Source of the DNA: a virus | Virus record (IMG/VR): IMGVR_UViG_3300010148_002987 | Span: 1-20,353 of that record | DNA length: 20,353 nucleotides | Strand: one strand, 5' to 3' | Part shown: positions 6,950-17,775 of the stretch, piece by piece | Position numbering within the stretch: the first letter of the stretch is position 1 | Layout of the letters: each line of letters opens with the position of its first letter | Notes under the pieces: generated by a model | The model's database searches: none | Told to the model about the DNA's origin: nothing | What the model saw: the letters and a program-made list of their open reading frames with translations, nothing else | Made by a program: the position numbers and the translations under genes

Positions 6950-7924
6950 ATGGCACAATCAAACGTATTTGATACTACTAATCCAGGAAGCGCAGTTTCC
7001 AATGCTGAAGACCTCACTCGTGGGGCTTACATCATTGATACTACGATTACCCCTGTTTACGCAATGCTCGACAAAGTGCGAGCTACTAACTACTTCCACG
7101 AATGGACCGTTGACGAGCTAGATACTCCTCGCGCAGACGGTGTTGATTTCGGAAGTGATGCTACCGTCAAGGAAGACGCTTTTGAAGGTCAAGAGCGTGT
7201 GGGTAACTACATTCAGAAAGAGCGTCGAGTCCCTGCTGTTACAACTGAGCAGGAGCGGGCAGATGCAGCAGGCGGAGTCAACTTCATCAATGCTGTTGAG
7301 AAGTCTCTGAAGAATCTTAACCGTGACACCGAGAAAGCTATCCTTTCGGATAACACTCTAAACGGCAGCGGTCCACGTCCAATCGCAGAAGGTCTTGCTA
7401 AGACGTTATCTGGCAGTTCCGACATCTTCGGAGCCAACTACCAAGTTCCAGCAGGCAGCCGAAAGGATGCAACTGCTGTAACACAAGACGGTGTAGATGA
7501 CATCCTTCGCAGCATCTTTGATGAGTCCGGAGAGATGGCAAATGTCACAGTCTTTGGCGCTTCTGGATGGATGCAGGACTTCAATGGCGCTACGATGAAC
7601 CTAAGCTCTTCGAGCGAACAGTATCGCACGACCGTTAACCTTAATGGTGAAGACAATGAACTAGACTTCCAAATCCGCGTCTACCAAGGCCAGCATGGAA
7701 TGATCAAGGTTGTTGACCTTAACTCTAAGTGCTTGAATGACACTGTGAACAAGGATGAGGCTTACTTCATCAACACGGACTACGCCTGCATTGCAGAGTA
7801 TGGCCCACTCGAAAACCTATCGCTCCCTAATAACGGAGCAGGTAAGAGTTCTGCTATCTCTCGCTGGTTCACTCCTGTTGTTAAGAACCCTCGCGCACAC
7901 GGTTTCTGGGCTTCCACATCGTAA
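6950..7924 (+). CDS. Major capsid protein, HK97 fold, SU10/DUF5309-like
   Basis: This is the main head shell subunit, 324 residues. The N-terminus (DLTRGAYIIDTTITPVYAML, residues 21-40) followed by a Trp-containing strand (HEWTVDEL) and an acidic EG segment matches the pattern I associate with the SU10-type capsid family (DUF5309). A long helix at about 108-135 (GGVNFINAVEKSLKNLNRDTEK) would be the spine helix. An axial domain follows (FGASGWMQDFNG, about 200-211). The C-terminal half shows strand-rich features, ending in the conserved-looking YGPLENLSLP and a W-containing tail. The start has no Shine-Dalgarno, but ACTAAT at 6931-6936 and an AT-only leader precede it. It follows the scaffold by 27 bases. 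Confidence 0.9.
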   Translation: MAQSNVFDTTNPGSAVSNAEDLTRGAYIIDTTITPVYAMLDKVRATNYFHEWTVDELDTPRADGVDFGSDATVKEDAFEGQERVGNYIQKERRVPAVTTEQERADAAGGVNFINAVEKSLKNLNRDTEKAILSDNTLNGSGPRPIAEGLAKTLSGSSDIFGANYQVPAGSRKDATAVTQDGVDDILRSIFDESGEMANVTVFGASGWMQDFNGATMNLSSSSEQYRTTVNLNGEDNELDFQIRVYQGQHGMIKVVDLNSKCLNDTVNKDEAYFINTDYACIAEYGPLENLSLPNNGAGKSSAISRWFTPVVKNPRAHGFWASTS

Positions 7925-8780: not shown

Positions 8781-9697
8781 GTTTAAGAACACGGACATGG
8801 GATAGGCTGCTAAAGACAATCAGCGGCAAGTTTGGACAAGATGTAGAAAAGTCTACCTACCTTGATCGTGTTCGGTATTCGATTAACCAAGCTGCCCTTG
8901 AGCTTCACGAATACTACAAATGGATGAGCAGATTCTTAGTTGTTTCAGAGCCAAGAACGGTTCTAAGAGGGCAAATAGAATCAGAAGAAAACTCATTTTA
9001 CGTTTACGGGGCTGGGACGCAGGACGTTAATGGACTTTACGTTCAAGACCCAAGCGGTGGAACTGGATTTAATTACGTTGGATTATTAAAAGAAGGTGAT
9101 ACGGTTAAGTATTACCTATATTACAGCAACAATGTATTAAAGTGGTTAATTGGAACTGTTCTGTATGACGAAGAGTTTGTCCTTTACAACTCTTCTTTTG
9201 ATACCGCAAGCCCATCTGAATCGACATGGGAAGTTCAAAGCTTAGGTGGACTCCCGGCAGAAGAGCCAGGCCCTATAGTCCAACAACTCTCTGAGATTGG
9301 GACAATGCTTCATGTAGATAGGTGCAACATCTATCAAGACAGGACTAGCGACCCAATTGAATTTTATTCCCAAGGCGGCTTCTACCCGCTTAATACTAAG
9401 AATGCTCCAGATATTGCATACTGCACGTATCAAAAGCCGTTGAATGTAGAGTATGGAGAGGGCGTAGACTTGGACATTCCAGAAGAAATGTTCAACTACA
9501 TGGTTCTATACGCGGTCAGAGACTTGCAGTTATCTCAGCGTCAGTCCAATCCCAATGCTTTGTATGGGGTTGTAACAGATCGTCAATTGCAATCTGCATT
9601 TGAATCGGTTGGGCAAACGGCAGACTACGAGCGAACAATCTCAAATGTAGCTATAAGAACCCAAACACACTTAAAAGAAGACAACACATTATACTAA
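8777..9697 (+). CDS. Head-tail adaptor-like protein with an inserted beta domain
   Basis: This probably joins the portal to the tail in the virion. The 306 residues form two halves of an adaptor: an N-terminal helical part (1-60, with YSINQAALELHEYYKWMSRF) and a C-terminal helical part whose segment LDIPEEMFNYMVLYAVRDL (232-250) matches the 'two-proline, then long helix' pattern of head-tail connector proteins. Between them, residues about 75-165 form a separate domain: GAGTQDVNGLY, then a Tyr-rich stretch, then LKWLIG, VLYN, a Ser/Pro segment ending ESTWEV, and GGLPAEEPGP. This reads like a small beta domain spliced in. The start overlaps the previous gene by 4 bp. A tail-tube role is the alternative. 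Confidence 0.65.
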   Translation: MSLRTRTWDRLLKTISGKFGQDVEKSTYLDRVRYSINQAALELHEYYKWMSRFLVVSEPRTVLRGQIESEENSFYVYGAGTQDVNGLYVQDPSGGTGFNYVGLLKEGDTVKYYLYYSNNVLKWLIGTVLYDEEFVLYNSSFDTASPSESTWEVQSLGGLPAEEPGPIVQQLSEIGTMLHVDRCNIYQDRTSDPIEFYSQGGFYPLNTKNAPDIAYCTYQKPLNVEYGEGVDLDIPEEMFNYMVLYAVRDLQLSQRQSNPNALYGVVTDRQLQSAFESVGQTADYERTISNVAIRTQTHLKEDNTLY

Positions 9698-12163: not shown

Positions 12164-12316
12164 ATGAAAATGAAATACAAAACAAGCAAAAAACCTGTCT
12201 CTAAAAAGACAACTCCTGTATCAAAGAAGTCTTTTCCGTTAAAAAAGAAAACGGTCATGGTAAAGAAAAAGACTATTCCGGTTAAACGTAAAACCACTTA
12301 TGTGAAAAAGAAATGA
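12164..12316 (+). CDS. Lysine-rich heptapeptide-repeat micro-protein (50 residues)
   Basis: From the ATG at 12164 the frame runs to a TGA at 12314-12316. Residues 9-50 are exactly six seven-residue repeats without interruption: KKPVSKK, TTPVSKK, SFPLKKK, TVMVKKK, TIPVKRK and TTYVKKK. The consensus is (S/T)-x-P-V-(S/K)-K-K. Nearly half of all residues are Lys or Arg, and there are no acidic residues. The pattern recalls histone H1 tails and other nucleic acid-condensing basic peptides. It ends in a 4-bp ATGA overlap with the next gene, which argues that it is translated. Possible roles are DNA binding in the head, RNA binding, or an antimicrobial-like membrane-active peptide. The codons use AAA and AAG freely, and synonymous variation between repeats shows they are not recent DNA copies. 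Confidence 0.65.
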   Translation: MKMKYKTSKKPVSKKTTPVSKKSFPLKKKTVMVKKKTIPVKRKTTYVKKK

Positions 12317-12541: not shown

Positions 12542-12760
12542 ATGAAACTATTGCCGCTAATATCAATGATTTTGTTATCTGGCTGCGCCTCTAAAACAAA
12601 TAGGCTGCCAGAACCTCACTTTGTTTTACATGGCTATGTTACAAACAACGGTTTCATTCAGGTTATTGATACAAAAAGCGGCAATAGTTTAGCAGTTAAG
12701 TCCAACGTATTGTATGCGGAGGATGAGGAAGCTTTAGTGGAGGATTTAAAGAACAGATGA
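12542..12760 (+). CDS. Small lipoprotein, o-spanin candidate
   Basis: This is a 72-residue protein with a clear lipoprotein signal peptide: MK, the hydrophobic stretch LLPLISMILL, and lipobox LSGC with the lipidated Cys at residue 15. The mature part (about 58 residues) is polar, with a strand-like centre (HGYVTNNGFIQVIDTKSGNSL) and an acidic C-terminal helix (DEEALVEDLKNR). Outer-membrane spanins are short lipoproteins, usually proline-rich. This one is not proline-rich, so the call is tentative. It follows a one-TM coiled-coil gene, in the usual inner and outer spanin order, and its stop overlaps the three-TM gene by 4 bp. It could alternatively be a superinfection-exclusion lipoprotein. 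Confidence 0.6.
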   Translation: MKLLPLISMILLSGCASKTNRLPEPHFVLHGYVTNNGFIQVIDTKSGNSLAVKSNVLYAEDEEALVEDLKNR

Positions 12761-13281
12761 TACAGCTACTTTTACCACTACTTACCGCCCTGGCTGGTGG
12801 CGTGACGGGACTAATGGAGTCTCGGTCTGCCAATTCTGTAGAGTTAAAAAAGCTAGACAATGACAGAGAGCGAGACGCTATCTTAGCAGCTCAGGGGAAT
12901 ATAAAAGACTACTATGAGTCCAACACGAGGTCGGACGACCCAAAGCTTAATAAAATTCAACTATGGGGGTTTACTTATGAATCTTACAAATACGTTCAAA
13001 TACCTACTCGCCTGTATCAGTTTCGTGTTATGTGGCTGCTCACACTCGCCTATTGTTTCGTCGTCGGATGCTCCGTGCTTGGGGCAGACATCCCAATCTG
13101 GAGCTTCCCTGCGTCGCCCGACGCATACAAGTGGTTCAGCCTACTCGGATTCTCCCTTACTGAAGGAACTAAAACAAGCGTATATCAACTTACGCTCGGT
13201 GGTATTCTCCTCCCACTATTGAGCCCTTTCTTCTTCGCATTTACTCGATACGTCACAGGCCCAAGTCAATCAAAATTCTAA
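12757..13281 (+). CDS. Three-TM membrane protein, holin-like
   Basis: This is a 174-residue membrane protein. A hydrophobic N-terminus at 3-20 (QLLLPLLTALAGGVTGLM) is followed by a charged helical region (22-60, Lys/Asp/Arg/Glu). Two further hydrophobic segments lie at about 91-110 (VMWLLTLAYCFVVGCSVLGA) and about 145-164 (LTLGGILLPLLSPFFFAFTR). Three segments with a large soluble loop resemble holin-like proteins of phages and gene-transfer agents, which make lesions in the inner membrane at the end of the cycle. The neighbours (a one-TM protein and a lipoprotein) support a lysis cassette, but no endolysin is in the window. A second ORF with a lipoprotein signal is nested in it in another frame. 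Confidence 0.55.
   Translation: MIQLLLPLLTALAGGVTGLMESRSANSVELKKLDNDRERDAILAAQGNIKDYYESNTRSDDPKLNKIQLWGFTYESYKYVQIPTRLYQFRVMWLLTLAYCFVVGCSVLGADIPIWSFPASPDAYKWFSLLGFSLTEGTKTSVYQLTLGGILLPLLSPFFFAFTRYVTGPSQSKF
12977..13222 (+). CDS. Nested lipoprotein ORF, embedded o-spanin candidate
   Basis: This ORF of 81 codons lies wholly inside the three-TM gene in the +1 frame. It starts with MNLTNTF, has a hydrophobic core KYLLACISFVL, and a lipobox-like LCGC with Cys21. The mature part is Ser-rich (SHSPIVSSSDAPC, then SGASLRRPTHTSGSA) and ends in a helix-like LLKELKQAYINLRSVVF. In lambda, the outer-membrane spanin Rz1 is encoded in the +1 frame inside Rz, so a nested lipoprotein in a lysis region is a recognised arrangement. 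Against it: hydrophobic stretches often stay hydrophobic when frame-shifted, the lipobox has an unusual Cys at -2, and the upstream GGGGGT is only a weak ribosome site. The start at 12977 was chosen because it places the signal peptide at the N-terminus. Confidence 0.4.
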   Translation: MNLTNTFKYLLACISFVLCGCSHSPIVSSSDAPCLGQTSQSGASLRRPTHTSGSAYSDSPLLKELKQAYINLRSVVFSSHY

Positions 13282-17466: not shown

Positions 17467-17775
17467 ATGGATTTATTTGAAAGAGACAGTCAAAGGCGTA
17501 ACGACTCGATTAAGTTTGGTCGAGAGTTAGATCCTATAGTATTCGAGAGGGAGAAAGAAACTAGGCTTCGAGAGTCTGACACTTCTATAGAGTTTAACAC
17601 TAAGATAGATACGTTTATTCAGCCAGAAGGCGGTGGCGGTGGCGGTGGCGGTGGCGGTGGCGGTGGCGGTGGAATCCCCGACGGCTTTCAACAGGAAGTT
17701 TTGGATATTGTAGATATTGATAACGGTCAAAATGTAGCCGGTCAGCGCGTATTTCTAACAAAGGGGGTTACATAA
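17467..17775 (+). CDS. Small protein with a 15-glycine linker
   Basis: This is a 102-residue protein. Residues 1-54 form a charged segment (MDLFERDSQRR, then FEREKETRLRE) that could be a helical anchor. Residues 55-69 are fifteen consecutive glycines. The C-terminal 33 residues (IPDGFQQEVLDIVDIDNGQN and on) form a small unit. A flexible poly-Gly arm between two short parts suggests a tether, perhaps attaching the neighbouring appendage proteins. The ATG follows ACTAAT by one base, and the stop lies one base before the next ATG. There are no Cys, no signal peptide and no recognised domain. Confidence 0.65.
   Translation: MDLFERDSQRRNDSIKFGRELDPIVFEREKETRLRESDTSIEFNTKIDTFIQPEGGGGGGGGGGGGGGGIPDGFQQEVLDIVDIDNGQNVAGQRVFLTKGVT
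17629..17673 (+). repeat. GGCGGT hexanucleotide tandem repeat (poly-Gly)
   Basis: Seven head-to-tail copies of GGCGGT (17629-17670) plus a GGA codon encode 15 glycines. A six-base unit is a multiple of three, so gain or loss by strand slippage keeps the frame and changes only the linker length. A similar but shorter run of GGC/GGT (14655-14675, seven glycines) lies in the collagen-like fibre gene. Confidence 0.9.

Follow-up and report, generated by a model that had tools for sequence, protein, structure and literature searches.

Tandem Lys-Pro repeats with (T/S)-x-P-V-K-K-like units occur in histone H1 and HU-tail type proteins. Among the tailed phages, T4 packs approximately 360 copies each of the small, basic internal proteins IPI-IPIII together with its DNA (PMC9026906). 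Basic proteins are nevertheless not known to play a large part in neutralizing the dsDNA of phages, as stated in PMC3281028. CsCl-purified virions of the cyanophage S-CREM2 yielded 4 unique peptides (4.1% coverage; PMC10665884, Table 3) of the protein ORF137, the end of which is a DUF6321 domain; these peptides may fall outside this domain. A different kind of small cationic phage product, the disruptins, has been described as short amphipathic helices (PMC12819732). Our literature search on lysine-rich micro-proteins of marine phages retrieved nothing pertinent.

The window analyzed here is the whole of a 20,353-bp IMG/VR record, and the capsid protein of this phage is of the SU10 type. Downstream of the capsid gene, it encodes a lysine-rich micro-protein (hereinafter the heptad peptide) followed by a set of membrane-associated proteins:

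6950..7924 (+): major capsid protein, SU10-type (PF17236, 1.4e-30)
12164..12316 (+): heptad peptide, 50 aa, a short N-terminus and 6 units of 7 residues
12313..12540 (+): 75-aa protein with a single, N-terminal TM segment followed by a helix (one-TM protein), in ATGA overlap with the heptad peptide gene
12542..12760 (+): small lipoprotein of 72 aa with the lipobox LLSGC, resembling outer-membrane spanins
12757..13281 (+): multi-TM protein, 174 aa, similar to holins in position and hydrophobicity but without a family match

The heptad peptide gene starts with ATG 4.2 kb after the major capsid gene, and the peptide contains 20 lysines and one arginine (21 K/R), with a pI of about 11. The reading of this ORF in the initial annotation, as 50 codons at 12164-12316 that specify no aspartate or glutamate and end with a TGA overlapping the next ATG (ATGA, at 12313), was borne out. 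The description of the peptide as six perfect heptapeptide repeats stands with respect to the register, because residues 9-50 divide into exactly 6 x 7, but not with respect to the units, which are imperfect and not identical: after the N-terminal MKMKYKTS, the peptide reads KKPVSKK, TTPVSKK, SFPLKKK, TVMVKKK, TIPVKRK, TTYVKKK. The formula (S/T)-x-P-V-(S/K)-K-K, which had been assigned to all six units, fully fits only unit 2 (1/6); unit 1 begins with K, units 4 and 6 lack the proline, unit 3 has L in place of V, and unit 5 has R in place of K, so that the lysine in position 7 is the sole invariant residue. The heptad peptide resembles the histone H1 and HU tails in its tandem (T/S)-x-P-V-K-K-like units but is not attached to a globular domain. 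Searches of Pfam and PDB detected no sequence relationship, the PDB yielding only chance matches (E 0.7-0.95); neither PHROG and Pfam profiles nor a tblastn search of phages at an E-value cut-off of 10 produced a match.

The periodicity of the heptad peptide is far beyond what its composition would yield. At lag 7, 20 of the 43 residue pairs are identical, compared to 8.6 +/- 2.2 in composition-preserving shuffles, none of which, out of 200,000, reached this value; when the best of lags 5-9 was allowed, 1 of 100,000 did. In a survey of 35,140 ORFs of 20-140 aa from 268 records (2.65 Mb), 886 of which were K/R-rich, the strongest lag-7 signals among the K/R-rich ORFs belonged to the heptad peptide and its positional equivalent in the related genome G001, and in the first 1.7 Mb scanned, only these two ORFs exceeded 37% lysine. 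A search for a tandem repeat at the DNA level within the ORF found none, and like residues in different units use the same codon in 17 of 55 cases, compared to 21.0 expected. The seven-residue period thus resides in the protein and not in the DNA, and the repeat did not arise by recent duplication of DNA or as a poly-A artefact.

Lysine-rich repeat ORFs upstream of corresponding one-TM genes, which the initial annotation had proposed to look for, were identified in two other loci, G001, the terminase of which is 74% identical to that of the window, and L316:

L005:1198-1287 (+): G001 equivalent of the heptad peptide, 29 aa, three heptads, matched by position and unit type
L316:691-780 (-): L316 equivalent, 29 aa, three octads, matched by motif scan and gene order
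L005:1290-1598 and L316:395-688: equivalents of the one-TM protein, matched by position

The G001 equivalent reads MKQVRKS, TKRVAKK, TTPIKKK, TTYIRKK, K, and its lag-7 signal was reached in 9 of 200,000 shuffles. The L316 equivalent reads MPLR, KTTYIKKK, PSTTIKKK, QPTIIQKKK, with a spacing of eight residues; its lag-8 signal was reached in 100 of 100,000 shuffles (p 0.003 for the best of lags 5-9). Because L316 was found by a motif search, its motif is not independent evidence, whereas its gene order is. Most of the matches in the three motif scans of viral contigs were unrelated K-rich tails, the informative ones being G001, L316, L166 and a set of micro-ORFs of the form MPYGKGTYG...KKTKPVKKKK.

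All three loci encode tandem units of 7-8 residues, each a cluster of lysines on a [ST]-T-x-[VI]-like spacer. The number and the spacing of the units differ (6 heptads in the window, 3 heptads in G001, 3 octads in L316), so strict conservation does not extend to the unit length of seven, but [ST]-T-x-[VI]-K-K-K-like units persist in the same gene position. This is the pattern, a conserved unit in variable copy number, that the initial annotation had specified as support for function. When compared in unit register, the window and G001 differ 10, 11 and 18 times at the first, second and third codon positions, respectively, and 7 of the 14 identical residues are written with different codons, as expected from constraint at the protein level. 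By sequence comparison, the heptad peptide appears to represent an unannotated family of repeat micro-proteins in a fixed gene position, a family defined by three diverged sequences of 29-50 aa.

The heptad peptide is probably a genuine product of a late gene. That the ORF is spurious might be suggested by its length of 50 aa, the lack of a Shine-Dalgarno sequence and the lack of a family match; we consider this extremely improbable given the periodicity, the three syntenic copies and the excess of third-position differences. Many other genes of the same phage also have no clear Shine-Dalgarno sequence upstream, so its lack here is no evidence against translation. The proposal that failure to detect the peptide by proteomics would refute its existence carries little weight: complete trypsin digestion would leave fragments of 6 residues at most, so ordinary tryptic virion proteomics is nearly blind to it. 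The heptad peptide thereby exposes a blind spot, as peptides of this kind are not easily detected when virion proteomics relies on trypsin.

The single-sequence structural model of the heptad peptide has no secondary structure (pTM 0.13), and its helical moment at 100 degrees is not above that of shuffles (p 0.28; p 0.06 for the G001 equivalent), so a multivalent unfolded polycation is the safest description. The peptide probably associates with DNA or with some other negatively charged molecule. Tentatively, and at somewhat less than an even chance, we favor the reading that it is made late as an unfolded polycation with DNA or RNA as its ligand and is perhaps packaged. Under this scenario, the peptide would be translated late in infection and stay unfolded. 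A short spacer of the [ST]-T-x-[VI] type would present approximately three lysines per unit, and the tandem arrangement of the units would allow multivalent binding of a polyanion, most probably a nucleic acid. The target could be the phage DNA, bound during packaging or inside the virion much as by the small basic internal head proteins of T4 or, alternatively, at a late stage of infection, the nucleoid DNA or RNA of the host. We propose that the number and spacing of units are free to vary because valency counts, not the fold.

Strong positive charge, the lack of acidic residues and the lack of a predicted fold are traits of protamine-like and internal proteins that the heptad peptide displays. 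It is small and basic as are IPI-IPIII of T4, but IPI is folded, the internal proteins carry a capsid-targeting propeptide, and there is no sequence relation between them and the heptad peptide. By our calculation, approximately 400 copies would offset 10% of the phosphates in a 42-kb genome; if packaged, the peptide would bear on how the charge of phage DNA is balanced. The best single outside pointer to its target is the detection of S-CREM2 ORF137 in virions, an indirect one, by analogy, as this protein belongs to another family and carry-over could account for its presence; since the sequence of the heptad peptide matches neither DUF6321 nor any other family, the result is not transferable by homology.

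An argument against DNA binding comes from the neighboring genes. In the window, G001 and L316, the heptad peptide gene lies directly upstream of a gene for a one-TM helical protein that is followed by a small lipoprotein gene, and this constant association fits a role at the envelope equally well. The one-TM protein of the window is modeled, from the single sequence, as one long helix (residues 2-74, pLDDT 94), and its predicted topology resembles that of inner-membrane spanins. The one-TM proteins of G001 and L316 are clearly homologous (E=6e-4), whereas the homology of the window protein, which is approximately 21% identical to either and was matched by position and topology, is weak. The lipoprotein of the window is 42% identical to that encoded at L005:1780-1956, and its match to a PHROG Rz-like spanin (E=0.003) is confined to the signal-peptide region. 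A search for related loci with the 174-aa multi-TM protein retrieved none. Within the gene for this protein, in another frame, we noticed by eye a candidate lipoprotein ORF (12977..13222, +; lipobox LCGC, MNLTNTFKYLLACISFVLCGC/SHS...), an arrangement that recalls the Rz/Rz1 nesting.

The main rival to nucleic-acid binding, which we consider possible but rather unlikely, is that the heptad peptide is a cationic component of a lysis cassette, produced late in the cytosol and freed when the holin opens, to act as a disruptin-like agent or a helper. It would bind LPS or anionic phospholipid and aid the rupture of the outer membrane by the spanin-like pair, and would then represent a new type of cationic helper in spanin cassettes. 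Phage-encoded cationic lysis peptides exist (PMC12819732), small basic ORFs of other phages lie near holin- or endolysin-like genes, and the cassette of the window includes, in addition to the one-TM and lipoprotein genes, a multi-TM protein. Like the disruptins, e.g., that of phiKT, the heptad peptide is small, cationic and encoded beside lysis-like genes, but with 4 prolines, a hydrophobic fraction of 0.28 and neither a modeled helix nor a helical moment above shuffles, it shows no sign of the amphipathic helix that defines disruptins, and we therefore do not assign it to them. Moreover, the spanin-like pair already present in the locus would make a disruptin redundant. The placement of the peptide at the head of a membrane cassette, as originally described, holds in all three loci but not as a general rule: among the 28 wider relatives, only 7 have small-TM ORFs in the vicinity of their basic ORFs, so that we rejected such adjacency as a general feature, and the one-TM neighbor is a trait of the close lineage.

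Conceivably, the peptide could be a host-takeover effector that binds the host nucleoid, RNA or ribosomes and is not packaged. Its composition and lack of a fold are compatible with such a role, as are the rows of similar basic micro-proteins in the unrelated phage L166; however, the gene resides in the block of virion and late genes and not in an early region, and we regard this as distinctly unlikely. Less probable still is that the ORF serves as a leader, in which the repeated lysine codons and the tight junction pace or couple the translation of the one-TM protein or, in a variant of this scheme, -1 ribosomal frameshifting on the terminal lysine codons fuses the two products. At each of the three loci, the one-TM gene occupies the -1 frame, which is open for 15-39 nt upstream of its ATG; the ORFs of G001 and L316 end with AAG AAA AAA and a stop codon, and that of the window ends with GTG AAA AAG AAA TGA. 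However, the same frame relation follows from ordinary coupling through ATGA or a 2-nt gap, slippery-looking runs of A are inevitable at a lysine-rich end, a search for a stimulatory structure nearby gave no clear candidate, and the conservation of residues between the lysine clusters points to the peptide itself. The slippery-looking A-rich ends (window 12302-12316; L005:1276-1287; L316 691-700, -) might permit a -1 frameshift fusion.

A search for related loci with the window terminase alone retrieved only L002; beyond G001, the terminases of L086 and a few short contigs are approximately 50% identical to that of the window, and that of phage C75C1 is approximately 40% identical. Small basic ORFs, defined by a net charge per residue of at least 0.2 and at least 15% lysine, thresholds chosen after examples had been seen, are present within 7.5 kb after the capsid gene in 28 of the 32 relatives that were kept after dereplication and extend at least 6.5 kb beyond this gene. 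On the coding strand within 10 kb downstream, 87 of 90 basic ORFs are found 2-8 kb past the capsid gene, with almost none upstream of it or on the other strand. Location inside the structural-gene block is general among the basic ORFs of the relatives.

Profile searches showed that these ORFs include families such as DUF6321 and DUF5754/DUF5872-like proteins. The DUF6321 protein of C75C1 matches 400 phage records, mainly of cyanophages and pelagiphages, the pelagiphage HTVC010P also encodes a DUF6321 protein, and an algal giant virus is also listed with DUF5754 and DUF5872 (PMC12085832). The DUF6321 (PF19846) profile did not match the heptad peptide or its G001 equivalent, and the similarity of the neighbor in L086 to DUF6321 (E=0.02) is below the cut-off. 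The heptad peptide is small, K-rich and encoded in the same gene block as these marine phage proteins, which in the relatives often contain conserved Cys and aromatic motifs but no heptads; it shares position and composition with them, with membership in none by sequence, and apparently takes up the spot at which its relatives have small basic proteins of other families.

It is possible, albeit unlikely, that a large group of uncultivated aquatic phages packages the products of islands of tiny polycationic proteins as a protamine-like, DNA-condensing set, of which the heptad peptide would be the most extreme form found here. Such a set would run contrary to the notion that tailed-phage DNA is neutralized essentially by ions and polyamines, and the pattern of small basic ORFs 2-7 kb after the capsid gene could be tested with one cultured relative.

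Several additional observations concern the wider set of phages. In L166 (7821-8911, -), five Lys-rich micro-ORFs (32, 96, 85, 95 and 52 aa) are lined up beside a one-TM coiled-coil protein that ends with KKKKK, with an intein-like domain nearby (9204-9644). In L188 (1942-3477; Synechococcus phage ACG-2014a), a 511-aa protein encoded near the small terminase gene contains several basic modules and a DUF6321 end, and looks like a fusion of the micro-ORFs that are separate in other phages. The sole relative of the portal protein in a search of genome contigs, L267, belongs to an Opitutae (Verrucomicrobiota) MAG bin, a weak hint at the host of the wider group, and ends before the heptad peptide region. 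In the window itself, the signals in a promoter and terminator scan were not above those in shuffles, and Rfam and tRNA searches yielded none; direct repeats of approximately 15 bp containing GTATCCATACCAAAG are located at 27-129, upstream of the presumed small-terminase gene, and might be iteron-like or regulatory, and a 102-aa ORF at 17467-17775 contains a run of approximately 15 glycines.
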